Positions 10,239 through 49,877 of a DNA stretch of 64,000 bases are shown piece after piece. The stretch spans positions 868,001-932,000 of the forward strand of contig NZ_JAHOOZ010000001.1 of NCBI RefSeq assembly GCF_019075875.1. The letters are read 5' to 3'. Position 1 is the first letter of the stretch. The number at the start of each line of letters is the position of its first letter. A model generated the notes under the pieces. The model saw only the letters and a program-made list of their open reading frames with translations, was not told the origin of the DNA and searched no databases. Source of the stretch: Novosphingobium sp. G106 (GTDB taxonomy: Bacteria; Pseudomonadota; Alphaproteobacteria; Sphingomonadales; Sphingomonadaceae). A program made the translations under genes and the position numbers.

Positions 10239-11366
10239 ATGCGTGCCGAAGGGCAGGCTCACATCGATCGCATCGAGGCCGCGCTGGCGCTCGTCCGCAA
10301 GTTTCTGGACTGGGACCGCGCACTGCGCCGGCTCGACGAGCTCAATGCGCGCGTCGAAGATCCCAAGCTCTGGGACAATCCCAAGGACGCCGAGGCGGTC
10401 ATGCGCGAGCGGCGCCGGCTCGAAGCGGCGGTCGGCACGGTCAAGCAGATCGCCCAGGAAATGGCCGACGCGATCGAATTCGTCGAGCTGGGCGAAGCCG
10501 AGGGCGACGACGATACGGTGAACGAGGGGCTGACCAGCCTTGCGGCCCTCGCCGAACGCGCCGATGCGGACAAGATCCAGGCGTTGCTCGCGGGCGAGGC
10601 CGACGCCAACGACGCCTATCTCGAGGTCCACGCCGGCGCTGGCGGTACCGAGAGCCAGGACTGGGCGCAGATGCTCCAGCGCATGTACACGCGCTGGGCC
10701 GAGCGCCACGGCTACAAGGTCGAACTGGTCGACTACCATTCCGGCGAGCAGGCCGGGATCAAGAGCGCGACGCTGCTGATCAAGGGCGAAAACGCCTACG
10801 GCTATGCCAAGACCGAGAGCGGCGTCCACCGCCTCGTCCGCATCAGCCCCTACGACAGCTCGGCGCGGCGCCACACCAGCTTTTCGTCGATCTGGGTCTA
10901 TCCGGTGATCGACGACGACATCGACATCGAGATCAAGGAAAGCGATCTCAAGATCGACACCTACCGCGCTTCGGGTGCGGGCGGCCAGCACGTCAACACG
11001 ACGGATTCGGCGGTGCGTATCACCCACATCCCGACCGGCATCATCGTCGCCAGCCAGAACGACCGCTCGCAGCACAAGAACCGCGCCACCGCGATGGGCA
11101 TGCTGAAAGCGCGCATGTACGAGGCCGAACTCGCCAAGCGCGAGGCCGAGACGATGGGCGAGTACCAGGCCAAGACCGAGATCGGCTGGGGCCACCAGAT
11201 CCGCTCCTACGTCCTCCAGCCGTACCAGCTGGTGAAGGACCTGCGCACCGGCGTCACCTCGACCGCGCCCGACGACGTGCTCGACGGCGCGCTCGATCCG
11301 TTCATGGCCGCGGCCCTGTCGCAGCGCGTGACGGGCGAGAAGGTCACCGTGGAGGACGTGGATTGA
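10239..11366 (+). CDS. prfB: Peptide chain release factor 2
   Basis: A 375-residue class I release factor that reads UGA and UAA stop codons on the ribosome. The peptidyl-transferase motif GGQ is at residues 248-250. The stop-codon recognition tripeptide is 'SPY' at 203-205, where E. coli RF2 has SPF. 'TESGVHRLVRISP' and 'RRHTSFSS' confirm RF2 over RF1. The frame is continuous from ATG 10239, with no in-frame TGA near codon 26, so the self-regulating +1 frameshift of enterobacterial prfB is absent. The next gene overlaps its stop by four bases. Confidence 0.96.
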   Translation: MRAEGQAHIDRIEAALALVRKFLDWDRALRRLDELNARVEDPKLWDNPKDAEAVMRERRRLEAAVGTVKQIAQEMADAIEFVELGEAEGDDDTVNEGLTSLAALAERADADKIQALLAGEADANDAYLEVHAGAGGTESQDWAQMLQRMYTRWAERHGYKVELVDYHSGEQAGIKSATLLIKGENAYGYAKTESGVHRLVRISPYDSSARRHTSFSSIWVYPVIDDDIDIEIKESDLKIDTYRASGAGGQHVNTTDSAVRITHIPTGIIVASQNDRSQHKNRATAMGMLKARMYEAELAKREAETMGEYQAKTEIGWGHQIRSYVLQPYQLVKDLRTGVTSTAPDDVLDGALDPFMAAALSQRVTGEKVTVEDVD

Positions 11367-14270: not shown

Positions 14271-15146
14271 CTAGCTGGCCGGCTCTTCCACCTTCTGCAG
14301 CGCATCGTGCAGGTAGAGATCGGTCGGCACCTGCTCCCAGTAACCGAAGTGTGCGATCGTTACGCGCTGCAAAGTCCGCGCCGCATTGCCCGTCGCCGAG
14401 CGGGCGTGCTGGACGGCCAGGTTGTCCCAGATCACCAGGTCACCCTCGCGCCAATGGTGTTCGTAGACGTTGTCCGGCGCGTAGAGATAACCGAACAGAT
14501 CCTCCAGCAGCGCGTCGCTTTCGCCCGGCGCCATTTTCGTGATGCAGGCCGACATGTCGAGATTGACGAAGAGGTAGGGCCGGCAAGTGCCTTCCTGCTT
14601 GCCGACCACCGGATGGACGGTCGCCATGTCACCGGGATCGAGATCGGCGAGTGTCGTGCGGCGGCCGAGCATATGGCCGCGCACGTGCAATGCGTTGAGC
14701 CCTTCGACTTTGGTCTTGAGCGCGCTAGGCAGCCTGTCCCAGGCCCGCAGCGCATTGGCGAAGCGTGTCGCCGCGGCCCCTTCCGCAACTTCGAGCGCAT
14801 GCAGCGAGCCGCCGAGGAACGGCGCGGGCACATAGGGAATGTCGTTGTGGAACAGCAGTTCGGCCTTGCCGAGGAAGCCGCCCTCGACGACGTTCGATAC
14901 CACGTAATTGTCGAGTTCCGTCCGCAGCGCCGGGCCGAACAGGTCGCAGGCCGCCTGTTGCTGTTCGCGGCTGAGCGCTTGCCCGCGGAACAGGATCAGG
15001 CCGTCGCGCCGGTAGATGCGCAGCAGGGCGGCGCGCTGGGCCTCACTGAGTGGGGCGGTGAGATCGAGATCGCATTCCCAACCGAAGGGCGCGCCTGCGA
15101 TCGGCTTGGCACCCGTCAGTTCGTCATCCTCTCGCTCGCTTGCCAT
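14271..15146 (-). CDS. TauD/TfdA family Fe(II)/2-oxoglutarate-dependent dioxygenase (copy 1)
   Basis: A 291-residue member of the TauD/TfdA family, which couples oxidative decarboxylation of 2-oxoglutarate to hydroxylation of a substrate, often an organosulfonate or aryloxy acid that then falls apart. The iron triad is H100 and D102 ('FHNDIPY') with distal H247 ('VQHAR'). The candidate 2-oxoglutarate-binding arginines are R257/R261. It differs clearly from the four dioxygenases at 24-28 kb and lacks their 'RTKLEGEEP' ending. It lies 24 bp downstream of the second MFS gene of the minus-strand pair, with a strong AAGGAGAAGG site, so MFS-MFS-dioxygenase is one operon. Confidence 0.88.
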   Translation of the reverse strand: MASEREDDELTGAKPIAGAPFGWECDLDLTAPLSEAQRAALLRIYRRDGLILFRGQALSREQQQAACDLFGPALRTELDNYVVSNVVEGGFLGKAELLFHNDIPYVPAPFLGGSLHALEVAEGAAATRFANALRAWDRLPSALKTKVEGLNALHVRGHMLGRRTTLADLDPGDMATVHPVVGKQEGTCRPYLFVNLDMSACITKMAPGESDALLEDLFGYLYAPDNVYEHHWREGDLVIWDNLAVQHARSATGNAARTLQRVTIAHFGYWEQVPTDLYLHDALQKVEEPAS

Positions 15147-15170
15147 GGAGCCTTCTCCTTTGGTTGCAGT

Positions 15171-16427
15171 CTACGCCGCGGCGGCGCGTGCTGCAAAGTC
15201 CGGCTTGGGCCGCAGCGCCGCGAACAGCAGCGCGGCGCCGAGGAAGCCGGGGACCGTCGCCCAGATCACCGGGTTGTATGACTTGCTCACGTCGTAGATG
15301 TGGTTGGCGACGAGCGGGCCGATGCCTTGCGCGAGCGTCGTCGTGATCGAGATCACGCCGTAGAACAGTCCGAAGCTGCGCGCGCCCAGGTGCGTGGAGG
15401 TCAGGTAGACGATGGCGTTCATCTTCATTCCGCCGGTCAGGCCGTAGGCGATCACCCCGGCCATCGAGGCCCAGAACACACCCGGCGCCAGCAGGAGCGA
15501 CAGCGGCAGGCCCAGCGAGACGAGCGAGGCGATGATCGCGAGGCGCTGGACGTCGAAGCGATCCATCAGCACGCCGCCGATGAGCCGCCCGATGATGGAG
15601 GCGATGCCCATCGACCCGGCGATGGAGACCGCCTCGACGCGGGTGAGGCCCGTGAAGGTCAGTACGGGGACCAGGTTGAGGATCAGTGCCACCCCGGTCA
15701 TCGCCGCGACCAGCGAGGCGCAGAACAGGATGTAGAGGTTCGCCGAGGCGAAGCCTTCGCGCGGGGTGAGGCCGGCGAGCGACGCCTGGCTGGGCGCGGC
15801 TTCGTCGAGCGCGTGGTCCTCGCTGTGCTGACCCGGCAGCCGGGGCACGAACAGCAGGACCAGCGGCGCGACGACCGCGCACCACATCACCGCCAGCGCC
15901 AGGAAACCGCTGCGCCAGCCGTGGTTCTCGACGAAGTATTCGGCGATGCCGGGCGCCAGCGCCATCGAGATGCCGGTGCCCGAAATGGTGATCGCGATCG
16001 CCATGCCGCGGCCGGCGTGGAAGATCGTCGAGATCGGCGCCATCCACACTGTGGAGGTAAAAGAGCCCGAGATGCCGAAGATCGCCCAGCAGGCCCACCA
16101 GTGCCAGAGCTGGTCGCCGATCAATGACATCGAGGCGATGGCGAGGAACGAGCAGATGACGGTGATGATCCCGCAGGTGCGCGAGCCCCACTTGTCGATC
16201 AGATAGCCGGCGGGCGTGGCCAGGAACAGGCCCATGACCGAGACCACGGCCGGGCCCGAGGAGATTTGCGCGCGAGTCCAGCCGAATTCCTCTTCGAGCG
16301 GCCCGAGCATCACGCCGAACACGGAAGAGAGCAGCGCGGCGAGCGACATGCCCATCGTGGTAGCGGCGACGAGCGGCCAGTACTTTCGCCATTCGCCCAG
16401 GGACGAGCCCGCTTGCATCGTTGCCAT
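15171..16427 (-). CDS. MFS transporter (oxalate/formate-antiporter-like), second of minus-strand pair
   Basis: A 418-residue 12-helix carrier of the monocarboxylate/oxalate-formate-antiporter type. It has the N-terminal 'GEWRKYWPLVAATT', 'LEEEFGWTRAQIS', the loop 'PAGYLIDKWGSR' and a central hydrophilic break near residue 200. It likely moves an organic anion across the inner membrane. Its ATG at 16427 overlaps the stop of the upstream paralogue as TGATG, so the two are translationally coupled. A longer frame running to 17756 is open but is only an out-of-frame extension across the upstream gene. The dioxygenase gene follows after 24 bp. Confidence 0.9.
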   Translation of the reverse strand: MATMQAGSSLGEWRKYWPLVAATTMGMSLAALLSSVFGVMLGPLEEEFGWTRAQISSGPAVVSVMGLFLATPAGYLIDKWGSRTCGIITVICSFLAIASMSLIGDQLWHWWACWAIFGISGSFTSTVWMAPISTIFHAGRGMAIAITISGTGISMALAPGIAEYFVENHGWRSGFLALAVMWCAVVAPLVLLFVPRLPGQHSEDHALDEAAPSQASLAGLTPREGFASANLYILFCASLVAAMTGVALILNLVPVLTFTGLTRVEAVSIAGSMGIASIIGRLIGGVLMDRFDVQRLAIIASLVSLGLPLSLLLAPGVFWASMAGVIAYGLTGGMKMNAIVYLTSTHLGARSFGLFYGVISITTTLAQGIGPLVANHIYDVSKSYNPVIWATVPGFLGAALLFAALRPKPDFAARAAAA

Positions 16428-17698
16428 CAGGCCTGTTGCTCCTGCTTGGTGAAATCGGGGTAGGGCCCGAGCGAAAGGTAGAACAGCGCGGCAATCGCCA
16501 GGAACGGCACGGCGGTCCACATTACCGGGGTATAGGATTTCGTGAGGTCGTAGACGTAGTTGGCGACCAGCGGCCCGAGGCCGACGCCCAGCGCGATCGC
16601 GGTGTTGATCGCGCCGTAGAGCGTGCCGAAAGCCCGCGCGCCGAAGTGGCGGCTGGCGAGATAGGCGACGGCCGGCACCTTGGCACCGCCCATCAGCCCG
16701 TAGATCGCGACCCCGGTCGCGGCGGCCGCGGGCGAGCCGGGCGCGAGCAGCAGCAGCGCGGGCAGGGCGATCGCCCCGGCCGAGGACAGCGCGGCGATCG
16801 TGCCGGCGCTCATCCGGTCCATCAGCCAGCCACCGGCGATCCGGCCGGTGATGGTCGCCACGCCGATCACCCCGGCTACCGCTGCGGCCGTCGCGGGCGT
16901 CAGCCCGGTAAAGCGCAGCACCGGCACGAGATTGAGGATCAGCGCGACCCCCGCCGACATCGAGAGGAAGGCCGCGAGCGCCAGCTTGTAGAACTTGGGC
17001 GAGGCGAAGCCCTCTCGCGCGGTGAGGCCGGGGAGGGGAGCGCTCGGTTCCTGCGTTGCCTGTGTCGCGGCTTTGGGCCTGCCGGCGCCGCGGAAGAACA
17101 GCAGAATCAAGGGCAGCGCCACCGCCGCCCAGATCGCGCCCAGGCCAATATAAGCGCCGCGCCAGCCGTATTCGGCGAGGAGGTGGTTGGCGACGATCGG
17201 CACCAGCGAGGTGCTGATCCCCGACCCGCTCAGGGTAATGGCGACGGCGAGCCCGCGGCCCGTCTGGAACAGGCTGGAGATCGGCGTGAGCCACACCGTG
17301 GGCATGGCCGCTGCCGAAAGGCCGACGACGATCCACAAGCACCACCACTGCCAGAGCTCGCCTGCCACTGCCGACATCATTGCCACGCCCGCGCACATCA
17401 GCGTCGCCGCGACGATCCCGACGAAGCGCGCGCCCAGCCGGTCGATCGCGAGGCCGGCCGCGGTCGCCAGGAAGAACGCCATGAACGAGACGAGCGAGGT
17501 GCCGAGCGAGATCTGCGTCCGGCTCCAGCCGAATTCCTGCTCGAGCGGCTCCATCATTACGCCGAGCGACGACACGCTGACGGCGGAAAGCGAAACGCCC
17601 GCCGCGGCAGCCAAGACGACAGTCCAGTGGGCGCGCCATTCGGCACTCGCCGTGGCGGGTATGGTTTCCGGCAATCGCGTCTCCCTTGTCGATCGCAT
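16427..17698 (-). CDS. MFS transporter (oxalate/formate-antiporter-like), first of minus-strand pair
   Basis: A carrier of about 423 residues, paralogous to the gene after it. It shares 'AEWRAHW', 'LEQEFGWSRTQIS', 'REGFAS', 'GVALILNLVPVL' and a matching end ('GPLVANYVYDLTKSY'). Start choice is open. ATG 17698 is given, but a TTG at 17674 with AAGGGAG six bases before it fits the short N-terminus of its paralogue better, and a TTG at 17707 is also in frame. It is the first gene of the MFS-MFS-TauD operon, divergent from the TonB receptor at 18088. Confidence 0.88.
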   Translation of the reverse strand: MRSTRETRLPETIPATASAEWRAHWTVVLAAAAGVSLSAVSVSSLGVMMEPLEQEFGWSRTQISLGTSLVSFMAFFLATAAGLAIDRLGARFVGIVAATLMCAGVAMMSAVAGELWQWWCLWIVVGLSAAAMPTVWLTPISSLFQTGRGLAVAITLSGSGISTSLVPIVANHLLAEYGWRGAYIGLGAIWAAVALPLILLFFRGAGRPKAATQATQEPSAPLPGLTAREGFASPKFYKLALAAFLSMSAGVALILNLVPVLRFTGLTPATAAAVAGVIGVATITGRIAGGWLMDRMSAGTIAALSSAGAIALPALLLLAPGSPAAAATGVAIYGLMGGAKVPAVAYLASRHFGARAFGTLYGAINTAIALGVGLGPLVANYVYDLTKSYTPVMWTAVPFLAIAALFYLSLGPYPDFTKQEQQA

Positions 17699-18087
17699 TG
17701 GTCCCAATTGCGCGGCGGCCTGTCAATCGCCGACCAAGCGCTTTTTTGTTTCGCACGGCAGTCCCGCGGGGTCAGACGGCAGTGGCCATCGTGCAACAGG
17801 CGGGCAGCGATTGCGCGAGCAGACAAGGCGGCGCACTTGACACTCTGGTTACATATGCGAAGAATTGCAGCCAGACAGGGCTGGAATTCGGGTTTTCAAT
17901 TTAAAATGCGTGTCGCGCATTGCGAGTTCGCCATGGTGGTCGCAAAACTTGACAGTCGTCAAATATGGCCCACACTGGTATCAATGAAGACATAATTGGA
18001 GCTTGGCGGAACACCGCCATTCCATCGGTAGAGAGGAAGCCCGTTGGCCGCGAAACAGCGGCGGCGGCCTGAAGGTGGGGGGGTTAC
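17699..18087. promoter_or_regulatory. Divergent intergenic region with short palindrome
   Basis: These 389 bp separate the minus-strand MFS operon from the plus-strand TonB receptor and hold no gene I can support. AT-rich stretches suitable for promoters lie around 17860-17920 and 17940-17995. A palindrome TTGAC-AGTC-GTCAA at 17949-17962 is a candidate regulator site, perhaps for the TetR protein encoded at 23341. A GGTGGGGGGG ribosome-binding site precedes the receptor ATG. Confidence 0.45.
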
Positions 18088-20620
18088 ATGAATAGCAATC
18101 TTAGGCGGAATATCGCGCTCGCAGCGACCGCGATGGGCGTAGTCCTGACGACGCCGGCTTTTGCGCAAGATACCGGCGGCAGCGATATCGTCGTCACGGC
18201 ACGCCGCGTCGAAGAGCGCCTGCAGGACGTGCCGATCTCGATCACGGTGTTCAACCAGCAGCAGCTGAGCAACCGGAACATCGTCAACAGCGCGGATCTT
18301 GCGACCTATACCCCTTCGCTGGCTGTCAACAGCCGATATGGCCCCGACAAGGCAGCATTCGCGATCCGCGGTTTCTCGCAGGATCTCAACACGGTGCCGA
18401 CGGTCGCGGTCTATTTCGCCGACGTCGTGGCTCCGCGCCTCCAGTCGAACATCCAGAGCGGCAACGGCGCCGGTGTGGGCAGCATGTTCGACCTCCAGAA
18501 CGTGCAGGTGCTGAAAGGCCCGCAGGGCACCCTGTTCGGCCGCAACACCACCGGCGGCGCCATCCTGCTGGTTCCGCAGAAACCGACCGACAAGCTCGAG
18601 GGTTATGTCGAAGGCACGGCCGGCAACCATGATCAATGGCGTGTCCAGGGTGTGATCAACATCCCCCCTGAGCGACACTATCCGTTTCCGCGCCGGCGTC
18701 GATCGCAACACGCGCGAAGGTTATCTGAACAATCGCTCGGGAGTCGGGCCGAAGGACTTCAATAACGTCAACTACTGGGCGGCGCGTGCCAGCCTCGACA
18801 TCGATGTCACGCCCGACATCGAGAATTATACGATCTTCACTTACTCCCGCTCGCGCACGAACGGCTGGGTGGGCAAGTTGGCCTATGTCAACAACGGCAC
18901 CGGCACCGGCAAGGCAGCCATCGCGGGTTCGGCCGCGATTCTGATCGCTGGCGGACGGAATCAGGCGATCGCCGAGGCCGGATACGGCCGCTACGATGTG
19001 GAGAGCAACACTCCTGATCCTTACGTGATCAGCCGTCAGTGGCAGGCGATCAACACCACGACCTGGAAGGCGAGCGACACCATCACGGTCAAGAATATCT
19101 TCAGCTACGGTGAATCGCGGGAAGCCTATTCCTCGAACCTCAGCGGCGATACCGGCGTGATTACCGGTCTCGGCACGTTCCCCTTTGTCATCACCTATCC
19201 GGGCAAGAACGGTGCCCAGGGCAACGAGCGGACGATCACCGAAGAACTGCAGCTTCAGGGCCGGACGAGCGATGGCGCCCTGACCTGGCAGGTCGGCGGC
19301 TATCTTGAGCACAGCAATCCGATTGGCCAGCAGGAACAGTTCACGCAGATATTCACGTCGCCGTGCATCGACGTTTACGCCTTCAAGTGCGCGCCGCTGG
19401 TTGCGTTCGGCAACTTGTTCGGCCAGATCGGCGATGCCAGGAACAACTATTACTACAAGAACTATGGCCTGTATGCGCAGGCGACCTACAAGTTTACCGA
19501 ACAGCTCAGCGTTACCGCCGGTATCCGCAACACCTGGGATTGGGAAAAGGAAACCGCGAACAACGTCAAGGTCACGACCTCGACTGCAGGGCCGACCGCC
19601 TACGGCACGGCAACCTCGCCTTACAGTTGTTCACGCGCCGGAGCTTCGCAGCTCAGTCCGCCGCCTGCAGGCTCGGCTGCGCTGTTGACCAACGGGGCGT
19701 GCACGCGGACCTTCATCCTACCGATGAAAGGCACGCCGACCTGGCTCATCGACCTCGATTACAAGCCGACGCCGGACATTCTCGTCTATGTCAAATATGC
19801 GCGCGGTTATCGTGCTGGCGGCATCAACGAGGCGAACGTCGGCGGAGAGGTCTGGAAGCCCGAGAAGATCGACGACTATGAAGTGGGCTTGAAGACGACG
19901 TTCGGTGGCGCCGTGCGCGGGAACCTGAACATCGCGGGCTTCTGGAACGAGTTCAAGAACCAGCAGTACACGGTTTCGATCCCGGCCTGCACGGCGGTGA
20001 CACCGGGTTGTACGAGCCCCGCGCCTACCGGGATCAATGGCGTCGTGAACCTCGACAAATCGCGGGTACGCGGTTTCGAGATCGAGGGTTCGATTTATCC
20101 GGTCGAGCCCCTGCGCATTGATTTCGGATATTCCTATCTCGATGCGAAAGTGCTCAAGTCGGGCGCTTCGTCCTGCGACGCAACCCGCTATCTCTGTGCC
20201 TCCGCCACTTTCCCGGTGCCGGGCACGCGCCTGCTGTTTGCGCCGAAGAACCGCTTCACGGTCAGCGGAACCTACACGCTTCCGTTCGACGAGGAGAAGA
20301 TCGGCAAGGTCTCGATCGGCGCGACTTTCGTCCACACCGACAAGCAGTTCAACTCGCACTCGAACGATGATTTCTTCGCAGGGCATGCGATCCCGTACAA
20401 TGCGAGCATCAGCCCGGCGACGAACTTGCTCAACCTGAACCTGAACTGGGAAAAGGTGGGCGGCAGCGCGCTCGACCTCGGCATTTTCGCCACCAATGTG
20501 ACCAACAAATACTATTACGTTGCCGCGACCAGCTCGATTTCGACGATCGGCAGCGAATACATCATGCTCGGCGAACCGCGCATGTACGGCTGGCGGGCGA
20601 AGATCCACTTCGGTCAGTAG
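18088..20620 (+). pseudogene. TonB-dependent receptor, interrupted by a +1 frameshift in a C6 run
   Basis: The 5' part reads from ATG 18088: a signal peptide ending 'TPAFA', then a plug domain with 'DIVVTARRVEERLQDVPISITVF', 'VQVLKGPQGTLFG' and 'NTTGGAI'. At the C6 run 18663-18668 the frame is lost. Removing one C restores a continuous receptor ('INIPLSDTIRFRAGVDRNT', then barrel strands to 'RAKIHFGQ' at 20620). The corrected length is about 843 residues. This is either a base-calling error, a slipped-strand ON/OFF switch or a real pseudogene. Its position, between an MFS-MFS-TauD operon and an MFS-MFS-TetR-TauD cluster, suggests it is the outer-membrane entry point for their substrate. A good terminator follows. 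Confidence 0.88.
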
Positions 20621-20645
20621 TCCAGCGCATTACCGCGGAACAACG

Positions 20646-20680
20646 AACGGCGGTCCCTTGCCAAAGGGGCCGCCGTTTCG
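20646..20680 (+). terminator. Rho-independent terminator after TonB receptor
   Basis: A 12-bp stem, AACGGCGGTCCC (20646-20657) with GGGGCCGCCGTT (20666-20677) including one G-T wobble, with an 8-base loop and a T-rich tail. It separates the receptor from the MFS pair. Confidence 0.85.
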
Positions 20681-20711
20681 TTTAAGCGTCCGATAAGTGC
20701 GGGAGTGATGG

Positions 20712-21965
20712 ATGGGACAGGCTGCGCCGCGATCGGCGATGGCGGAGTGGCGGCGATACGGTGTGCTGCCGATAGCGGCGGGCATCGGCTATTCGACCAT
20801 GGCCATCCAGACCTATGGCATCGGTCCCTTCGTCGCCTCGCTCGAGGCGCAGTTCGGCTGGTCGCGCGCGGAGGTGATGCTCGGCCTGACCATTTCTAAC
20901 ACGATCGGCGTCCTGCTCAACTTCGCCGTGGGCGTGCTCGCGGATCGCGTCGGGCCGCGCCGCGTCGCGCTGGGCGGGGTGATCGTCAAGACGAGTGCGA
21001 TCGCGCTGCTGGCGACGGCGACCGGCTCCGTGCTCAACTGGTCGCTGCTCTGGATGCTGGTGGCCTTCGGCGCCGTGCTGGCCCAGGCGAACGTCTGGGC
21101 CAGCGCGGTTGCCAGCCGCTTCGACAAGGGCAGGGGCCTCGCGCTGGCGGTGACGCTGTCGGGCTCGTCGTTCTGCGCGGCGATCCTGCCGGTGCTCGCG
21201 GCCAAGCTGATCGGCATCTATGGCTGGCGCATGGCTTTCGTCGGCGTCGCGGCGATCTGGCTCGTGGTGGCGCTGCCGGTCGTGTTCTTCTTCTTCAGCG
21301 GCCGGCAGGACGAGCACCGCCGATCTTTGGAACCCGAGGTTCGGGCCGAGGTCTTGGCGACCCTGCCCGGCGTGACCGTCCGCGAGGGCATGCGCATGAT
21401 CGCCTTCTGGCAGCTGATTATCGCCGCTTTCGCCTTCGCCTTCTACACGATGGCGATCGCGCCCAATCTCGTGCCGCTGATGACCGAGAAGGGCGAAACC
21501 GCGATGGCGGCGGCAGAGCTTGCAGCGATGATGGGCGTTGTCGGGATCGTCGCGCGGATCTCGGCGGGCTTCCTGCTCGACCATTTCTCGGCGAGAGTGC
21601 TCGGCACGATGGTCTTCATCCTGCCGGTGCTGGGCTGCGGCCTGATGCTGGTCGGCGCGCCCGGCTATCTCGTCCTGACGCTGGCGGTCATCAGCTTCGG
21701 CGTGACCATCGGCGCCGAGTACGACGTCGTCTTCTACCTCGTCTCGCGCCATTTCGGCCTCAGGAGCTTTGCGTCGCTGATGGGCGCGTTGCTGACCGCC
21801 GGGGCACTCGGCGGGGCCGTGGCGCCGGTCGTTGCGGGCTGGCTGCACGACCGCTTCGGCAGCTATGATCAGGTGCTTGTCGTGCTGATGGTGCTGATGG
21901 GCGGCGGCGCAGTCGCGATCGCGACGATGGGGCAGCCGAAGCAGGATTGGGGCGCAGCACACTGA
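20712..21965 (+). CDS. MFS transporter (oxalate/formate-antiporter-like), first of plus-strand pair
   Basis: A 417-residue 12-helix carrier related to the minus-strand pair but closer to its own downstream neighbour. Shared marks are 'AEWRRYG', 'YGIGPFVASLEAQFGWSRAEV', 'ADRVGPRRVAL', 'NLVPLM', 'GWLHDRFGSYD' and the ending 'ATMGQPKQDW'. It probably imports or exports an organic acid. It starts 32 bp after a terminator, so its promoter must be short or the gene depends on read-through. Its TGA overlaps the next ATG as TGATG. Confidence 0.9.
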   Translation: MGQAAPRSAMAEWRRYGVLPIAAGIGYSTMAIQTYGIGPFVASLEAQFGWSRAEVMLGLTISNTIGVLLNFAVGVLADRVGPRRVALGGVIVKTSAIALLATATGSVLNWSLLWMLVAFGAVLAQANVWASAVASRFDKGRGLALAVTLSGSSFCAAILPVLAAKLIGIYGWRMAFVGVAAIWLVVALPVVFFFFSGRQDEHRRSLEPEVRAEVLATLPGVTVREGMRMIAFWQLIIAAFAFAFYTMAIAPNLVPLMTEKGETAMAAAELAAMMGVVGIVARISAGFLLDHFSARVLGTMVFILPVLGCGLMLVGAPGYLVLTLAVISFGVTIGAEYDVVFYLVSRHFGLRSFASLMGALLTAGALGGAVAPVVAGWLHDRFGSYDQVLVVLMVLMGGGAVAIATMGQPKQDWGAAH

Positions 21966-23215
21966 TGCATTCAGGAGACAAGCAGGCGGGCCCGGAAGCA
22001 GCCAGAGCCGAATGGCGCGCCTATTGGCCGCTGACCTTGGCGGCGCTGATCGGCTATTCGACGATCGGCCTGCAAAGCTATGGCATCGGGCCCTTCGTGC
22101 CGCATCTCGAGAAGGCCTTCGGCTGGACGCGGACCGACGTGATGATCGGCCTGTCGCTGTCGAACGCGGTGGGCGTGTTCCTGAACATCCTGATCGGCAT
22201 GATCGTCGACCGTTTCGGGCCGCGCCGGGTGGCGCTGACCGGCCTGCTGGTCAAGACCGGCTCCTTCGCGCTCCTCGCTACGGCGACGGGGACGCTGCTC
22301 AACTGGTCGCTACTCTGGGTCGTGCTCGCGGTCGGCGTGGTGCTTGTGCAGTCGACGGTCTGGACCAGCGCGGTCGCCGCACGCTTCGACCATTCGCGCG
22401 GGCTGGCCATGGCCGTGGCCCTGTCGGGAACGCCGATCACGGCGGCGGTCGTCCCGGTCCTGGCGACCTGGCTGATCGGCGACTACGGCTGGCGCGTCGG
22501 CTTTGTCGGCGTCGCCGCGGCCTGGATCGTGGTGACACTCCCCGTGGTCTTCCTGTGGTTCAAGGACGGCCGCGATCCCGCGCAGCCGCTGCATGCGGCC
22601 GCGACCGGGCCGGTCTCCGGTCTGACCCTGCGCGAAGGGCTGCGTACGGCGGCCTTCTGGCGACTGCTCGTCGCCTTCGGCGCCTTCTCGCTCTACAACA
22701 TGGCGATGTCGGCCAATCTCGTGCCGCTGCTCGGCGAGACCGGGCTGAGCGAGATGCAGGCCGCGCGGATCGCCTCGGTCATGGGGCTCGTCGGCATCGT
22801 CGCGCGGCTGACCGTCGGCTTCCTGCTCGATCGCTTTTCCGGCCCGCTGATCGGCGGGCTGACCCAGTTCCTGCCCGTCATCGCCTGCGGCATCCTGCTG
22901 CTCCATGATCCCGGCGTGCTGCTGCTGACGGTTGCTGTCGCGCTGTTCGGCGTGGCCACCGGTGCCGAGATCGACGTCGCGCTTTATCTCGCTACGCGGC
23001 ATTTCGGCCTTCGGTCCTTCGCCGCGCTGTTCGGTGCGGTGATCACCTTCGGTGCGGTCAATGCCGCGATCGGGCCGATCGTGGCCGGTTGGCTCCACGA
23101 CCGTTCGGGCAACTACGACGGCCTGCTGATGACGGTCATGGTGGCGATGACCGTCGGCGCGCTGGCCATGGCCACGATGGGTCGCCCGAAGCACGACTGG
23201 CGCGCGGCAGGCTGA
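21965..23215 (+). CDS. MFS transporter (oxalate/formate-antiporter-like), second of plus-strand pair
   Basis: A 416-residue tandem paralogue of the preceding carrier ('AEWRAYWPL', 'YGIGPFVPHLEKAFGWTRTDV', 'VDRFGPRRVAL', 'ATMGRPKHDW'). I chose ATG 21965 because it forms the TGATG overlap with the upstream stop. The frame is open 6 codons further upstream, but that would lie inside the previous gene. As with the minus-strand pair, the coupling suggests equal synthesis of two related carriers, which might work as a pair or on two related substrates. Confidence 0.9.
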   Translation: MHSGDKQAGPEAARAEWRAYWPLTLAALIGYSTIGLQSYGIGPFVPHLEKAFGWTRTDVMIGLSLSNAVGVFLNILIGMIVDRFGPRRVALTGLLVKTGSFALLATATGTLLNWSLLWVVLAVGVVLVQSTVWTSAVAARFDHSRGLAMAVALSGTPITAAVVPVLATWLIGDYGWRVGFVGVAAAWIVVTLPVVFLWFKDGRDPAQPLHAAATGPVSGLTLREGLRTAAFWRLLVAFGAFSLYNMAMSANLVPLLGETGLSEMQAARIASVMGLVGIVARLTVGFLLDRFSGPLIGGLTQFLPVIACGILLLHDPGVLLLTVAVALFGVATGAEIDVALYLATRHFGLRSFAALFGAVITFGAVNAAIGPIVAGWLHDRSGNYDGLLMTVMVAMTVGALAMATMGRPKHDWRAAG

Positions 23216-23266
23216 AGCGGCGGATGTCCGTGTGGGCGATTATGCGCGCCTCCCTGAGCATACCCA

Positions 23267-23279
23267 CCGGATCATCCGG
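23267..23279. promoter_or_regulatory. Short palindrome upstream of TetR gene
   Basis: CCGGAT-C-ATCCGG, a perfect 6-bp-arm palindrome 61 bp before the TetR start. It could be an operator or a weak hairpin. Nothing else is seen in 23216-23340. Confidence 0.3.
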
Positions 23280-23340
23280 CGGTTTCCTTGACTTGAGCGC
23301 GCGTGGTCCTACGTGAAAGGGCCTCAGTCAGGGGATTTTG

Positions 23341-23943
23341 ATGGCAGTCGCGCCGCGCAGGGTTGGAGCAGAGAATTCGGCGACGCGCGCGCTGATCCTC
23401 GACGCGACAGAGCAGTTGATCCGTGAAGAAGGCTACGCCGCCGTCAGCACCCGCCGGGTTGCGGCCAAGGCCGGGCTCAAGCCGTCGCTCGTCCACTATT
23501 ACTTCACGACCACCGACGACCTGCTGCTGGCGATGTCGCGCCGCGGTGCCGAGGAAAGCGACCGGATGATCGAGGCGGCGCTGCGCGCGGACGATCCAGT
23601 TCGCGCGCTCTGGGCCTTCCTCGTCGACAAGAGTCGCATTGCCATCGCGCTCGAATTCATGGCCATGGCCAACCACCGCTCCGCCATCCGCGCGCATATG
23701 GCCGAACACTGCGAGGCCATGCGCCGGCGCGAAGAGGAGATATTTGCCCACATCCTCGGTGAAAGGCTGGCGGCGGCGGGAGAGATCGCGCCGGCAGGGC
23801 TCAGTCTCGTGCTTGCGGGAATCGGGCGGGCGCTGGTGATGGAAGGCGGGCTCGGCGTCACGGCGGGCCATGCCGAGGCGCGCGCCTTCGTCGAGCAATG
23901 GCTGGACAGACTGGCACCGCTGCCGGAGAAGGCCAAGGGATAG
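23341..23943 (+). CDS. TetR/AcrR family transcriptional regulator
   Basis: A 200-residue regulator with an N-terminal helix-turn-helix at about residues 20-62 ('AAVSTRRVAAKAGLKPSLVHYYFTTTDDLL'). ATG 23341 is preferred over the in-frame TTG three bases before it, because AGGGGA lies at a proper distance. The C-terminal domain is of the general TetR ligand-binding type. It is 19 bp upstream of the first dioxygenase of the plus-strand array and most likely regulates that array and perhaps the MFS pairs. Confidence 0.92.
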   Translation: MAVAPRRVGAENSATRALILDATEQLIREEGYAAVSTRRVAAKAGLKPSLVHYYFTTTDDLLLAMSRRGAEESDRMIEAALRADDPVRALWAFLVDKSRIAIALEFMAMANHRSAIRAHMAEHCEAMRRREEEIFAHILGERLAAAGEIAPAGLSLVLAGIGRALVMEGGLGVTAGHAEARAFVEQWLDRLAPLPEKAKG

Positions 23944-23962
23944 ACAACTGGGAGAGCGGCGC

Positions 23963-24778
23963 ATGAAGCTCGCCTGTCGGGAGATCAAGCCGGAGATCGG
24001 CGCCGAGGTTCTGGCCGACAAGCAGGCGCTGCTGACCGGCGAACATGCTGCCGATATCCGCGAGCTTCTGGAGCAGCGCGGCGTCCTCGTCTTTCCCAAG
24101 GTCGATTTCACCGAGCAGGAACTGATCGCGTTCACCCGCACCCTGGGCACTTTCGCGCCCGACCGCGGCCCGGACGAGGTCACGCCGATCTCGATCGATC
24201 CCAGCGGCGGCACGACTGCCGACTACACCCGCGCCTCATTCTACTGGCACTTCGATGGCTACATGAACGAAGTGCCGATCCTCGGCTCGATCCTCTGCGC
24301 GAAGGTCCTCTCGGCCACTGGCGGCCAGACCGAATTCTGCAATACCTATGCAGCCTATGAAGCGCTGCCCGAGGAGCGCAAGCGCCAGCTCGAAGGCCTG
24401 CAGGCCGTCCACGCACTCGCCGGGGCGCAGCGCGCGGTCGATCCCGAGCCGAGCTACGAGACTTTCCAGCAGTGGCTCAAGATCCGCCGCAACACCCTGC
24501 CGCTAGTCTGGAAGCATCGGTCGGGCCGCAAGAGCCTCGTTATCGGCAATACGGCGGTGGGTGTCGTCGACATGGACCCGATGGACGGCTTGGAGGTGCT
24601 CGTCTGGCTGCGCGACTGGGCCACCCAAAAACGGTTCCGCTACAGCCATGAATGGTCGCTCGGCGATGCGGTTCTGTGGGACAACACCGGGACCCTGCAC
24701 CGCGTCCGGCCCTATCCGGCCGACAGCGGCCGCCTGATGATCCGTACCAAGCTGGCGGGCGAGGAGCCTTTCGCCTGA
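23963..24778 (+). CDS. TauD/TfdA family Fe(II)/2-oxoglutarate-dependent dioxygenase (copy 2, array member 1)
   Basis: A 271-residue oxygenase. Iron ligands are H96 and D98 ('YWHFDGY') and H246 ('GTLHR'). The 2-oxoglutarate arginines are R257 and R261, spaced +11 and +15 from the distal histidine as in TauD. ATG 23963, with GGGAGAG before it, is chosen over an upstream frame extension that would overlap the TetR gene. It lacks about ten N-terminal residues ('MATA...') found in the other three array members. It is in one operon with the TetR gene. Confidence 0.9.
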   Translation: MKLACREIKPEIGAEVLADKQALLTGEHAADIRELLEQRGVLVFPKVDFTEQELIAFTRTLGTFAPDRGPDEVTPISIDPSGGTTADYTRASFYWHFDGYMNEVPILGSILCAKVLSATGGQTEFCNTYAAYEALPEERKRQLEGLQAVHALAGAQRAVDPEPSYETFQQWLKIRRNTLPLVWKHRSGRKSLVIGNTAVGVVDMDPMDGLEVLVWLRDWATQKRFRYSHEWSLGDAVLWDNTGTLHRVRPYPADSGRLMIRTKLAGEEPFA

Positions 24779-24902
24779 GGCCGATTCAGCGTAGTTTAAC
24801 GCCTGGGCGATCACAGTGATCGCTGCATCCGCCTTGACGCTGGCTTGCCTCTCGCGGCAATAGGCGAGGGTAGTTCATTTATTCAATCGCCGGGAGTTCG
24901 CC

Positions 24903-25757
24903 ATGGCCACCGCCGCCCAGATCCGCCTGTCCGCCGAGAACGTGAAGCCGAAGATCGGCAGCCGTATTCTCAATACCAAGGAAGAGCTGCTGAGCGGCGA
25001 GCTTGCCGCCGAGCTGCGCGACCTGCTCGAACAGCGCGGCGTTCTCGTCTTCCCGACGATCAACTTCACCGACGAGGAGCACGTCGCCTTCACCAAGACG
25101 CTCGGCACTTTCGCGCCCGAGATGACCGACAAGGACAAGGACGAGCATGTCGTCCACGCGATCACCCTCGACGAGAAGGTGAACCCGGGTTCGGCTATCT
25201 ACCTCAAGGGCTCGTTGTTCTGGCACATCGACGGCACGATGAACGACCTGCCGATCCGCGCCTCGTTGCTGGCCTGCAAGGTGCCGTCGCCCAAGGGCAC
25301 CGGCAACACCGGCTTCTCGAACACCTATGCCGCCTACGACGCGCTGACCGAGGAACAGAAAGCCGAGTTCGACCAGTACAAGGTCCGCCACGGTGCCTGG
25401 GCGACCCTGATGTACTGGAGCCCCGAGCCCGACCAGACCCTGCTGGAGCGTATGCAGGCGATCGGCGACGTCGAGATCCCGCTGGTCTGGAACCACGAGT
25501 CCGGCCGCAAGAGCCTGGTGATCGGCAACACCGCCCATACCATCTCGGGCAAGAACCACTTCGATTCCACCCGCATCCTCAACTGGCTGCGCACCCACGC
25601 CACGAAGGAGGAGTTTACCTTCAGCCACGAATGGACCGTCGGCGACCTGGTGATCTGGGACAACACCGGCACGATGCACCGCGCCGAGGCCTATGATCCC
25701 GCCTGCGGACGGATGATGGTCCGCACCAAGCTAGAAGGCGAAGAGCCGATCCAGTAA
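24903..25757 (+). CDS. TauD/TfdA family Fe(II)/2-oxoglutarate-dependent dioxygenase (copy 3, array member 2)
   Basis: A 284-residue paralogue. Iron ligands are H108 and D110 ('FWHIDGT') and H259 ('GTMHR'), with R270/R274 for 2-oxoglutarate. Shared array marks are 'LLEQRGVLVFP', 'SGRKSLVIGNTAH', 'SHEWTVGDLVIWDNTG' and 'RTKLEGEEP'. The segment between iron ligand and core (residues 128-185, for example 'PSPKGTGNTGFSN' and 'WATLMYWSPEPD') differs from the neighbours, so substrate range probably differs. A 124-bp gap with its own GGGAG site precedes it. Confidence 0.91.
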   Translation: MATAAQIRLSAENVKPKIGSRILNTKEELLSGELAAELRDLLEQRGVLVFPTINFTDEEHVAFTKTLGTFAPEMTDKDKDEHVVHAITLDEKVNPGSAIYLKGSLFWHIDGTMNDLPIRASLLACKVPSPKGTGNTGFSNTYAAYDALTEEQKAEFDQYKVRHGAWATLMYWSPEPDQTLLERMQAIGDVEIPLVWNHESGRKSLVIGNTAHTISGKNHFDSTRILNWLRTHATKEEFTFSHEWTVGDLVIWDNTGTMHRAEAYDPACGRMMVRTKLEGEEPIQ

Positions 25758-25785
25758 GCTTCGCGATTGCTCCTCCCGGTGTGAT

Positions 25786-25801
25786 GCTGTACATCTGTTC
25801 A
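25786..25801 (+). promoter_or_regulatory. Conserved 16-base upstream element, copy 1
   Basis: GCTGTACATCTGTTCA lies 24 bp before the start of array member 3. An identical 16 bases occur before array member 4 at 27059-27074. It is either a promoter or regulator site or a relic of duplication together with the gene. Confidence 0.55.
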
Positions 25802-25825
25802 GTATAACCGCCGGGAGAGAGAGCA

Positions 25826-26659
25826 ATGGCTACGGCCGCCAAGGCGCGCTTCGCTTCGGAAGAGATCAAGCCCAGGATTGGCAGCCGTATCCTGGCGGAC
25901 AAGGAAGCGCTGCTGAGCGGCGACTATGCCGCCGAAATCCGCGAACTGCTCGAGCAGCGCGGTGTGCTCGTCTTCCCCGAGATCCATTTCGACGATGCCG
26001 AGCAGATCGCCTTCACCTCGACGCTCGGCAAGTTCGCCCGCGAGATGCGCGGCGAGGACATCTACAAGATCACGCTCGACAAGAGCGTGACCGCCACCGC
26101 CGACTATCTCAAGGCGACGATCTTCTGGCATTTCGACGGCTTCTCGTCGCCCATGCCGATCCGGGCCTCGCTGCTGTCGAGCAAGGTGCTCTCCGAAGTG
26201 GGCGGCAACACCGAGTTTGCCAATACCTATGCCGCCTACGACGCGCTGCCCGAGGACGACAAGGCGATGCTCGAAGGCATGCAGGCGGTCCATTGCCTGG
26301 CCTCGACCCAGCTCGATATCGATCCGCAGCCGAGTTACGCCGAATGGCAGCGCTGGCTGGAGATGGGGCGCAAGGCGCTGCCGTTGGTGTGGAAGCACCA
26401 GTCGGGCCGCAAGTCGCTCGTGCTCGGCAATTCGGCGCACCACGTCGTCGGCATGGACCCGCTCGACAGCAAGGGCCTGCTGATCCGTCTGCGCGACTGG
26501 GCGACGCAGGAGCAATTCGTCTACAGCCACGAATGGACCGTCGGTGACCTCGTGATGTGGGATAACACCGGCAGCCTGCACCGCGCGATCCCCTATGAGG
26601 TGAACTCCAAGCGCATGCTCCACCGCACCAAGCTGGAGGGCGAGGAGCCCATCCTTTGA
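25826..26659 (+). CDS. TauD/TfdA family Fe(II)/2-oxoglutarate-dependent dioxygenase (copy 4, array member 3)
   Basis: A 277-residue paralogue. Iron ligands are H102 and D104 ('FWHFDGF') and H252 ('GSLHR'), with R263/R267 for 2-oxoglutarate. It is closest in pattern to array member 1 in the middle ('LEGMQAVH', 'DPQPSY', 'WLRDWATQ'-like stretch) and to member 2 at the N-terminus ('MATAAKARFASEEIKPRIGSR'). This is a mosaic look that recombination between copies could give. GGGAGAGAGAG precedes the ATG. Its stop overlaps the next gene as TTGA. Confidence 0.91.
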   Translation: MATAAKARFASEEIKPRIGSRILADKEALLSGDYAAEIRELLEQRGVLVFPEIHFDDAEQIAFTSTLGKFAREMRGEDIYKITLDKSVTATADYLKATIFWHFDGFSSPMPIRASLLSSKVLSEVGGNTEFANTYAAYDALPEDDKAMLEGMQAVHCLASTQLDIDPQPSYAEWQRWLEMGRKALPLVWKHQSGRKSLVLGNSAHHVVGMDPLDSKGLLIRLRDWATQEQFVYSHEWTVGDLVMWDNTGSLHRAIPYEVNSKRMLHRTKLEGEEPIL

Positions 26660-27021
26660 CCGGTCGTGCCGCAGATAACCTCAAGACGCGCCTGCGTAGC
26701 GATCTGCGCGCGGCGATGCTGGCTCGCGATACGAAGCAGGCCGCGGTGCTGCGCGTCCTTCTCGCAGCGATCGACAATGCCGAGGCCGTGGCGATCGAGG
26801 AACGGCCGCAAAGCCTGCAGCGATTGGACTTCGCCGAGGGCGCGGCCGAAGTCTCGCGCCGGGTGCTGGGCGAAGATGAGGTTGCGGCGATCCTGACCGA
26901 GGAGATTTCCGCGCGCCGGCTTGCGGCCGATCAGATGGCTGCGCTGGGTCGTGCCGATCGCGCAGGCGAACTGAACGCCGAAGCGGATGTTGTTGCGCGG
27001 TACCTGCAAGATCAATCGTGA
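26656..27021 (+). CDS. GatB/YqeY domain-like protein
   Basis: A 121-residue protein whose start ('LKTRLRSDLRAAMLARDTKQAAVLRVLLAAIDNAEA') matches the YqeY/GatB-tail family of small helical proteins. YqeY members are usually near 150 residues, so this one is short, and the second half is weakly conserved. It starts at TTG 26656, overlapping the dioxygenase stop by four bases, so it depends on that mRNA. The role is unknown; the tail domain of GatB binds tRNA. It is odd to find it inside a dioxygenase array. Confidence 0.66.
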   Translation: MTGRAADNLKTRLRSDLRAAMLARDTKQAAVLRVLLAAIDNAEAVAIEERPQSLQRLDFAEGAAEVSRRVLGEDEVAAILTEEISARRLAADQMAALGRADRAGELNAEADVVARYLQDQS

Positions 27022-27058
27022 TAGCGAATTTGGGTCGGTTGACGCCACTCCCGCCGCT

Positions 27059-27074
27059 GCTGTACATCTGTTCA
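27059..27074 (+). promoter_or_regulatory. Conserved 16-base upstream element, copy 2
   Basis: GCTGTACATCTGTTCA, identical to 25786-25801, 35 bp before the start of array member 4. The 88-bp gap 27022-27109 holds nothing else clear. Confidence 0.55.
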
Positions 27075-27109
27075 AATAACTGACCGCCAGCGTCTGGGAG
27101 AACTGTTCG

Positions 27110-27961
27110 ATGGCAACTGCCGTTTCGTCTCGTTGGGAAGTCGTCGATGTTGCGCCGAAGATCGGCTCGGCTATCCATACCGACAAGGCCACCTTGCTGA
27201 GCGGCGAGCGCGCCAAGGACATCCGGGAGATCATGGAACGCCGCGGCGTGATCGTCTTCCCCGAGATCAACCTGACCGACGACGAGCAGATCGCCTTCAC
27301 CCACACGCTCGGCACTTTCGCGCACGAGGATGGCGAGGGCGCCAAGGACGGCAAGGATTCGGTCTATCCGATCACGATGGATTCGAGCATCAACCCGATC
27401 GCCGATTACCTCAAGGGCGCCTTCTTCTGGCACCTCGACGGCACGATGTCGGAAAAGCCGATCCTGGCCTCGATCATGAGCGCCCGCGCGTTGGCCCCGG
27501 TCGGTGGCGAGACCGACTTCTGCAACACCTATGCCGCCTGGGACGAACTGCCCGCCGACGAAAAGGCGCAGGTCGAGGATCTCAAGGTCACCCACGCCAT
27601 GTGGCGCTCGCAGCTCTACTGGAAGCCCGAGCCGACCATCGCCGAGCTCGAAGCCTGGATGGCGCGCGGCGCGAACACGCTGCCGCTGGTCTGGAAGCAC
27701 CGCTCGGGCCGTCAGTCGCTGGTGCTCGGCGCCACCGCGCTCGAGGTCGAGGGCATGGGCACGGTCGAGAGCGAGAAGCTGCTGGTCAAGCTGCGCACCT
27801 GGGCAACCCAGCCGCAATTCTCCTATCGCCATACCTGGAAGCTCGGCGATATGGTGCTCTGGGATAACACCGGAACCATGCACCGCGCCCTGCCCTATGA
27901 CCACAAGTCTGGCCGCCTGATGATGCGCACCAAGCTGGAGGGTGAGGAAGCCTTCGCCTGA
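27110..27961 (+). CDS. TauD/TfdA family Fe(II)/2-oxoglutarate-dependent dioxygenase (copy 5, array member 4)
   Basis: A 283-residue paralogue. Iron ligands are H108 and D110 ('FWHLDGT') and H258 ('GTMHR'), with R269/R273 for 2-oxoglutarate. Like member 2 it has the 'YWKPEP' type middle and the long acidic loop after 'LGTF' (here 'AHEDGEGAKDGKDS'). The core 'WKLGDMVLWDNTG' and 'RTKLEGEE' ending are kept. It is the last oxygenase of the array and is followed by a terminator and then an SDR gene. Confidence 0.91.
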   Translation: MATAVSSRWEVVDVAPKIGSAIHTDKATLLSGERAKDIREIMERRGVIVFPEINLTDDEQIAFTHTLGTFAHEDGEGAKDGKDSVYPITMDSSINPIADYLKGAFFWHLDGTMSEKPILASIMSARALAPVGGETDFCNTYAAWDELPADEKAQVEDLKVTHAMWRSQLYWKPEPTIAELEAWMARGANTLPLVWKHRSGRQSLVLGATALEVEGMGTVESEKLLVKLRTWATQPQFSYRHTWKLGDMVLWDNTGTMHRALPYDHKSGRLMMRTKLEGEEAFA

Positions 27962-28085: not shown

Positions 28086-28952
28086 ATGTCTCAGGCACCA
28101 GTCGCCATCGTCACCGGCGCCAGCCGTGGGGCGGGCAAGGGCATCGCGGTTGCGCTCGGCTCGCACGGCGCGACCGTCTACGTCACCGGCCGCTCGCAGA
28201 AGGAAGGCGACGCCTCGATGCCGGGGACGATCTACTCGACCGCCGAGGAAGTCACCCAGGCCGGCGGCAAGGGCATTGCCGTCCGCTGCGACAGCGCCAA
28301 CGACGATGACGTGAAAGCGCTGTTCGAGCAGGTGATCGCCGAGCAGGGCCGCGTCGACATCCTGATCAACAATGCCGCCGCGATCTACGACGAGCTGTCG
28401 ATGCCCGGCAACTTCTGGGAAAAGCCGCTCAAGATCGGCGACATGATCAACGTCGGCGTGCGCAGCGGTTTCGCCGCGTCCTGGTTCGCCGCGCCGCACA
28501 TGGTCAAGCAGAACCGCGGATTGATCCTGTTCACCTCATCCCCCGGCGCCATGCATTACTGCTTCGGCCCGGCCTATGGCGCGCACAAGGCCGGCATGGA
28601 CAAGATGGCCTTCGACATGGGCGTGGACTTCGCCGATGTCGGCGCGAACGTCGCTGCCGTGTCGATCTGGATGGGGGCGCTGACGTCGGAACGCCTGCTC
28701 GAGATGATGGCGGCCGAGCCCGAGAAGTTCAAACACCTCGAAGGCCAGCTCGAATCCACCGGCCTGACCGGCCATCTCGCCTGGGCGCTCTACAACGATC
28801 CCAAGCTGATGGACTACAACGGCAAGACCATGGTCGGCGCCGACCTGGCCAAGAGCTACGGCATTACCGATCTGAACGGCCAGTTCGCACCCTCTTTCAG
28901 CGAAGGCACCGGCATTCGGCCAGTGGAATACGGCGCCTACAAGGTGAAGTGA
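28086..28952 (+). CDS. Short-chain dehydrogenase/reductase (DHRS1-like)
   Basis: A 288-residue SDR. The coenzyme motif is TGASRGAG (10-17), then NNAAA in place of NNAG (95-99), a catalytic serine at 151/152 and Y164/K168. The longer form with 'EYGAYKVK' end and 'SIWMGALTSERLL' resembles DHRS1-type carbonyl reductases. A terminator separates it from the dioxygenase array, so it has its own promoter in 28020-28085. It could reduce or oxidise a carbonyl made by the oxygenases, but that is only a neighbourhood argument. Confidence 0.88.
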   Translation: MSQAPVAIVTGASRGAGKGIAVALGSHGATVYVTGRSQKEGDASMPGTIYSTAEEVTQAGGKGIAVRCDSANDDDVKALFEQVIAEQGRVDILINNAAAIYDELSMPGNFWEKPLKIGDMINVGVRSGFAASWFAAPHMVKQNRGLILFTSSPGAMHYCFGPAYGAHKAGMDKMAFDMGVDFADVGANVAAVSIWMGALTSERLLEMMAAEPEKFKHLEGQLESTGLTGHLAWALYNDPKLMDYNGKTMVGADLAKSYGITDLNGQFAPSFSEGTGIRPVEYGAYKVK

Positions 28953-49662: not shown

Positions 49663-49877
49663 ATCTCACCCCCAACCGGCCAAATCATCTGCCGCGACCG
49701 CCCGTTCCGGATAACACCACTAGGCTCGGTTCAAAAGCCAACCGACGCAAAACTGCCATTTCTGCCGTGGAGACTGATCCAAAACGGACGATTGCCTTTC
49801 GCGACTTTTGGGCGGATCATTCGCTTGGCGGCCGGACCGAACAGCGTATTGGGACAACGGTCGCGGGGAGAGCAGGC

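Follow-up and report, generated by a model that had tools for sequence, protein, structure and literature searches.

A candidate operator shared by dispersed TauD-type oxygenase genes, and the TetR regulator gene that accompanies it, at a transporter-rich locus of Novosphingobium sp. G106

In this work we describe a block of oxygenase, transporter and regulator genes in Novosphingobium sp. G106, together with a palindromic operator candidate that the block shares with catabolic genes elsewhere in the same genome. The window analysed is a stretch of 64,000 nucleotides (bases 868001-932000 of contig 1, in a genome of 7.23 Mb), and positions within it are counted from its first base. The minus strand carries the order MFSa-MFSb-T1 and the plus strand the order receptor-MFSc-MFSd-TetR-T2-T3-T4-(YqeY)-T5-SDR, in which T1 to T5 are TauD/TfdA-type oxygenases, MFS stands for major facilitator superfamily transporters and SDR for a short-chain dehydrogenase/reductase. 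The features are as follows.

14271..15146, minus strand: T1, TauD/TfdA-type oxygenase (PF02668, 168.5 bits; PDB 6d1o, E 8e-24; HND and WDN..H)
15171..16427, minus strand: MFSb transporter (PF07690; sole PDB match the L-lactate transporter 6g9x, E 4.1e-11)
16427..17698, minus strand: MFSa transporter (PF07690; TGATG overlap with MFSb)
18088..18765, plus strand: N-terminal piece of the TonB receptor, with Plug domain (PF07715, 58.8 bits; frame lost near the end of the piece)
18869..20620, plus strand: beta-barrel piece of the TonB receptor, in another frame (PF00593, 135.1 bits)
20712..21965, plus strand: MFSc transporter (PF07690; sole PDB match 6g9x, E 1.3e-18)
21965..23215, plus strand: MFSd transporter (PF07690; TGATG overlap with MFSc)
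23338..23943, plus strand: TetR-family regulator, candidate repressor at the palindrome (PF00440; co-occurs with the palindrome)
23963..24778, plus strand: T2, TauD-type oxygenase (PF02668, 184 bits; 49% identity to T3)
24903..25757, plus strand: T3, TauD-type oxygenase (PF02668, 173.1 bits; nearest solved relative the 2,4-dichlorophenoxyacetate (2,4-D) dioxygenase 5bke, E 3.4e-29)
25787..25801, plus strand: palindromic operator candidate CTGTACATCTGTTCA, 5' of T4
25826..26659, plus strand: T4, TauD-type oxygenase (PF02668, 174.8 bits)
26656..27021, plus strand: YqeY-like gene between T4 and T5, with no clear role in the system (PF09424, 43.3 bits, cut-off 27)
27039..27044, plus strand: TTGACG, putative -35 box, 22 bp 5' of the operator's TGTACA
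27060..27074, plus strand: palindromic operator candidate CTGTACATCTGTTCA, 5' of T5
27110..27961, plus strand: T5, TauD-type oxygenase (PF02668, 178.3 bits; PDB 5bke, E 7.5e-33)
28086..28952, plus strand: SDR dehydrogenase after T5, kept in L021, L101 and L102 (PF00106)

All named families of the block lie above their Pfam cut-offs in a profile scan of the window proteins, which bears out what an earlier, sequence-only reading of this DNA had named as two MFS genes and a TauD gene on the minus strand, and as two MFS genes, a TetR gene and four TauD genes on the plus strand. The plus-strand run of four TauD genes is present as that reading had it, apart from the YqeY-like gene that stands between the third and the fourth. 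The start of T2 is placed at about 23963, as against the mechanical open reading frame start at 23870.

The palindrome, CTGTACAnnTGTNCA, occurs as a perfect 15-base repeat 5' of T4 and of T5; in a shuffle control allowing three mismatches, two matches were reached in 6 of 100 shuffles of the window. Across the genome the pattern CTGNACANNTGTNCA marks five distinct sites (seven rows), with none for the reversed pattern used as a control, and these sites precede T4, T5, a TauD gene beside rplA (L001), a Rieske oxygenase gene (L012, 28 bp 5' of its likely start) and a triplet of SDR genes (L013, 90 bp 5'). One palindrome thus stands before several catabolic genes, as expected of a TetR-controlled catabolic regulon. 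When the search was extended to 119 genomes, the pattern CTGTACANNTGTNCA returned 49 rows in 32 genomes, corresponding to 42 distinct sites, and the reversed pattern 18 rows in all. TauD genes follow 36 of the 42 sites: 29 have a TauD match no more than 200 bp away, to which seven others are added (L001, L141-L145, L152). Another two sites mark the 5' end of Rieske genes from the L012 family; at L149 the match overlaps the site, and at L151 the distance is 15 bp. The remaining four (L146, L147, L148, L150) are near none of the query genes. Rieske genes of this family also share a fetched locus with TauD genes in L019, L025, L027, L028, L116, L126 and L137. Neither the operator nor the dispersed regulon was noticed in the sequence-only reading.

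At L001:7474-8325, and again in L152-L155 and L157-L160, a TauD gene that has the palindrome stands alone at a distance of up to about 4 kb from rplA; this rplA-side gene would be a conserved orphan member of the regulon. At two further loci (L075:7561 and L078:7547) the palindrome lies about 2.4 kb 5' of a TauD gene and precedes another gene, which in L078 encodes a flavoprotein of the old-yellow-enzyme type (PF00724; the BaiCD model gives it 140.7 bits, with a cut-off of 825).

The distribution of the palindrome follows that of the TetR gene. Orthologues of the regulator (at least 50% identity) were found in 32 of the 119 genomes, one of them split over two contigs. Site and TetR gene occur together in 28 genomes and are both absent from 83 (Fisher 8e-19), and among the 38 TauD-bearing genomes the site is present in 28 of the 32 with the TetR gene and in none of the six without it (8e-5), p-values that overstate the association because the genomes are related. 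The palindrome could alternatively serve an unlinked regulator other than TetR, such as a member of the IclR family, with the TetR gene merely travelling alongside TauD genes. The site does resemble an IclR motif group, TGRAACAN1-2TGTTYCA, as given in the available portion of its description (PMC13273656), and nine TetR-linked loci are without a site; against such a regulator, the site was absent from every TauD-bearing genome that lacks the TetR gene, and it lies directly 3' of the TetR gene in L126 and L161. On balance we find this alternative unlikely, although no search was aimed at other regulators of matching distribution.

The position of the site is consistent with an operator. Of 17 promoters of T3/T4/T5-type genes, 14 have the motif TTGAC 21-24 bp 5' of the site, a spacing at which the palindrome would cover the -10 box of these core promoters; repressors commonly bind there. 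Scanning with a weight matrix built from the palindrome sites found a site in 21 of 30 TetR-linked loci, in 6 of 24 other sphingomonad loci, in neither of two other loci of this genome, and in none of 36 loci outside the sphingomonads. Within the 2.88 Mb searched, 45 of 62 matrix sites precede TauD genes, a ratio that is biased because many of the loci had been fetched for the site or for a TauD gene.

A comparable arrangement is known from EdcR of Caenibius tardaugens, a TetR protein that represses estradiol degradation and, according to the accessible part of its report, recognizes the palindrome TnnCnnTACnAnTnGTAnnGnnA (PMC8700777). As with EdcR, the TetR protein here is encoded beside sphingomonad oxygenase operons and the palindrome would overlap the -10 box, and regulation would work in a similar manner. 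The two systems differ in that the sites found here do not match TnnCnnTACnAnTnGTAnnGnnA, the spacing being one base different (a comparison by eye with the published consensus), and in that the EdcR palindrome, as far as that part of the report describes it, lies within one cluster while the site described here is dispersed.

Comparison with relatives indicates which parts of the block travel together. The scan of named genomes yielded at least 80 loci, and among the matches listed the closest named relative for the block is Novosphingobium sp. JCM 18896 ALB-2 (L021). T-type genes were found at E 1e-70 in 38 of the 119 genomes of the group, from which 40 loci were fetched. Near-complete blocks occur in L021 and L101 (MFSb-MFSa / receptor / MFSc-MFSd-TetR-T2-T3-T5-SDR), without T1 where it was looked for. 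In genome G053 the block is spread over two contigs, one with receptor-MFSc-MFSd-TetR (L161) and one with MFSa-MFSb-T1 (L162), while genome G068 (L109, L179) has two MFS genes, the receptor, one MFS gene, TetR, T2, T4 and T5, with a sulfatase gene in between. Smaller forms include T5-T3-TetR beside T1 and the single MFS gene that precedes it (L102), and receptor-MFSc-TetR (L174). The TetR gene, at the same identity threshold, is present in 22 of the 40 fetched loci and lies within 300 bp of a T gene in 21 of those 22; a related MFS gene accompanies it in three of the 22 and is absent from 19, some loci ending at contig ends. The gene bamD is found in 11 of the 40. Few relatives have a block that includes both MFS pairs; what recurs is the TetR gene beside T3/T4/T5-type TauD genes and the palindrome, with the paired transporters as a local addition. 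These counts also go against the expectation that MFS-MFS-TauD would prove a general unit of gene order in the 40 loci, as does genome G082, where no T1 match was found next to MFSb. Adjoining the SDR gene of the window is a molybdopterin oxidoreductase gene (28963-31008, minus strand). Such a gene is likewise next to the block in L021 and L101, and in L022 it is some 4.6 kb away from T5.

The sequence-only reading had proposed a single route from the outer membrane to the cytoplasm for related organic acids, built by duplication of an MFS-MFS-TauD module. Both halves of the block do recur in L021 and L101 and on the two G053 contigs, and the TGATG stop/start overlap to which that reading pointed is indeed common to both MFS pairs; such an overlap is an ordinary form of translational coupling. 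MFSa and MFSb are 47% identical and MFSc and MFSd 57%, as compared with 31-36% between the pairs. In a tree of 51 MFS proteins (of 73 collected, a 36% identity cut-off having dropped 22), MFSa and MFSb form one clade and MFSc and MFSd another, each with 100/100 support, and the c/d clade joins TauD-adjacent MFS proteins of Steroidobacter, Solimonas and Hydrocarboniphaga rather than a/b. The separate clades point to two independent tandem duplications, and T1 shares no more than 27-31% identity with T3, T4 and T5, so that duplication of a common module is refuted. Given in addition the scarcity of related MFS genes beside TetR and the single MFS gene before T1 in L102, we regard the duplicated-module route as very unlikely.

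Further tandem arrays of the same MFS subfamily occur in this genome and in others (L002, L007, L163-L171). Three of these, from three other genomes (L163, L164, L165), lie beside prfB in the absence of a TauD block; prfB in the window occupies 10239-11366, in the same neighbourhood as those arrays.

The part of the earlier proposal that does stand is the physical association of uptake and oxygenase genes, which lie together in L021, L101, L161/L162 and L102; joint control of the two halves is without support, since the operator was not found 5' of the transporter genes. At the level of the genome (37 TauD, 110 MFS and 115 TonB-barrel matches), 8 of 32 TauD clusters on contig 1 have an MFS gene no more than 3 kb away as compared with 2.48 expected (p = 0.0015), two of the eight being the clusters under study themselves; widening the distance to 5 kb or to 8 kb leaves the number at eight (p = 0.04 and p = 0.25, respectively). 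This test grouped the 35 TauD genes of contig 1 (two on contig 2 were dropped) and used 88 MFS starts, leaving out other contigs and second fragments. TauD clusters on contig 1 were not enriched near TonB receptors (2 of 32 within 3 kb, 3.2 expected).

As for the receptor itself, Plug and barrel domains are both present as the sequence-only reading held, though split over two frames instead of forming one open reading frame; intact counterparts are single frames of 849-853 aa in L021, L109 and L174. It is conceivable that the MFS proteins export a product or a toxic substrate and that the receptor is an unrelated neighbour, leaving no uptake route. Sequence does not reveal the direction of transport, and such a view would sit well with the missing enrichment near receptors, with the broken frame, and with a receptor identity of 51-52% in L021 and L101 versus 75-90% for neighbouring genes. 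It accords less well with the recurrence of a receptor gene directly 5' of an MFS gene in L101, L109, L161, L174 and L175, or with a lactate transporter (6g9x) as the sole PDB relative of both MFSb and MFSc, and we consider it improbable. The L-lactate MFS transporter model NF049980 was not reached by any of the four MFS proteins (104-131 bits, cut-off 320).

If the transporters do import, the uptake side would work like DdvT-DdvK of Sphingobium sp. SYK-6, where the MarR-type DdvR represses ddvT and ligXa (PMC6874591, as set out in the accessible part of that paper). The two loci are alike in gene content, each combining a TonB receptor, inner-membrane transport of the MFS type, a local repressor gene and catabolic genes within one sphingomonad locus. 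They differ in that the regulator here is of the TetR and not the MarR type, the MFS genes are paired, the oxygenases are of the TauD type, and the site is repeated elsewhere in the genome with none found 5' of the receptor.

Taken together, we think it probable that the block belongs to a dispersed catabolic regulon under TetR control, of which it is a local and richly equipped form. The regulon would serve the breakdown of a hydrophobic organic acid, and some strains would have added the receptor and MFS genes to it. The TetR protein would most likely bind CTGTACAnnTGTTCA over the -10 box and so repress promoters, and would release them on binding the substrate or an early product. Its targets would be paralogous TauD/TfdA-type Fe(II)/2-oxoglutarate oxygenase genes (T4, T5 and the one beside rplA) and, elsewhere in the genome, those of the Rieske oxygenase and the SDR triplet, enzymes that together may carry out the oxygenation and dehydrogenation of an organic acid that is hydrophobic and perhaps cyclic. 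The TonB receptor and the monocarboxylate-type MFS proteins encoded beside TetR, here and in some relatives, could carry the acid across both membranes. The sequence itself shows the gene families, their order, where the palindrome lies and that it occurs together with TetR; repression, ligand, import direction and substrate class we infer.

Several observations weigh against this reading. Four genomes have the site only and four have the TetR gene without the exact pattern, the 50% cut-off for TetR was chosen after the list had been seen, and nine of the 30 TetR-linked loci have no site at the matrix cut-off. TTGAC at 21-24 bp is found in none of 18 other sites (16 before TauD genes of another group, one Rieske and one SDR). 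Within the window, the receptor, MFSc, TetR and T2 have no good site 5' of them, none was found in the space separating MFSa from the receptor gene, and the T3 promoter has a weak site only. The receptor, finally, is broken in this assembly. Overall, we regard the regulatory unit as real, conserved and of a familiar kind.

The oxygenases offer some indication of the class of substrate. The five proteins score 168.5-184 bits with PF02668 (gathering cut-off 27), the iron-ligand HxD motif reads HND, HFD, HID, HFD and HLD in T1 to T5, respectively, and WDN...H is found in all five. T4, T5 and T2 are 56%, 51% and 49% identical to T3. The taurine dioxygenase model NF007104 was not reached by T1, T2 or T3 (81.4, 91.7 and 88.3 bits, cut-off 313), T4 and T5 lying outside that scan. 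The nearest solved relatives are the 2,4-D dioxygenase 5bke for T3 and T5 and the phenoxypropionate dioxygenase 6d1o for T1. The likeness to the aryloxyalkanoate dioxygenases TfdA and RdpA extends to the fold family and catalytic residues, and these are nearest by sequence only; the relationship is distant (best E 7.5e-33 over 283 aa), and no MFS protein of the TfdK kind was identified here, without direct comparison to TfdK. With the pentalenolactone enzymes there are fainter similarities: T1-T3 reach 67-80 bits with the 2-oxoglutarate oxygenase PtlD (cut-off 550), and this genome has, next to a T4-like gene (L019), a Baeyer-Villiger monooxygenase (BVMO) that reaches 622 bits with the BVMO PtlE (cut-off 1100). 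The window block has no BVMO. A sixth TauD-domain gene in the window (49500-50819, plus strand; PF02668, 131.7 bits, residues 132-415) lies about 22 kb off the block.

Genes that recur as neighbours in other bacteria include those for SDRs and acyl-CoA enzymes, for Rieske oxygenases and BVMO-like flavoproteins, and for a luciferase-like monooxygenase; all of these but the SDR genes suggest acids of an alicyclic, terpenoid or steroid-like nature as possible substrates. The SDR genes 5' of TetR in L025, L027 and L028 are only 36-38% identical to the SDR triplet of this genome. Sulfatase genes (PF00884) lie inside the block at L109:5424-7820 and just 5' of the palindrome and SDR triplet of this genome at L013:1438-3816, a possible hint of sulfate-ester substrates. 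Judging by solved relatives and neighbours, the shared theme is perhaps the stepwise oxygenation of a hydrophobic, possibly cyclic, carboxylic acid. The accessible parts of two reports provide context: Sphingomonas sp. ERG5, which degrades 2-methyl-4-chlorophenoxyacetic acid (MCPA), uses a Rieske enzyme, and its single TauD homologue is little similar to verified TfdA (PMC3877037), and in cholate-grown Caenibius tardaugens a gene annotated as taurine dioxygenase was raised (PMC12882949).

Among the literature matches listed, no title or abstract opening was found that describes the locus or the palindrome, most subscription journals lying outside the search, so that absence from print is unproven; nor was a paper found joining TauD, Novosphingobium, a TonB-dependent receptor and an MFS transporter. 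The genome has 37 TauD-family genes, and for those studied the substrate is not named by any model. If operator and regulator are shared, several of these genes would join a Rieske oxygenase and dehydrogenases in one pathway, which would make the substrate class testable with a single promoter reporter. More tentatively, this may be a sphingomonad regulon not described before, in which a single TetR co-ordinates chromosomally dispersed TauD genes, Rieske oxygenase genes and SDR genes through one palindrome, with the TetR gene as a docking point for receptor and MFS genes added strain by strain, a suggestion to which we give somewhat less than even weight. If this is true, one set of oxygenases would be fed with different acids.

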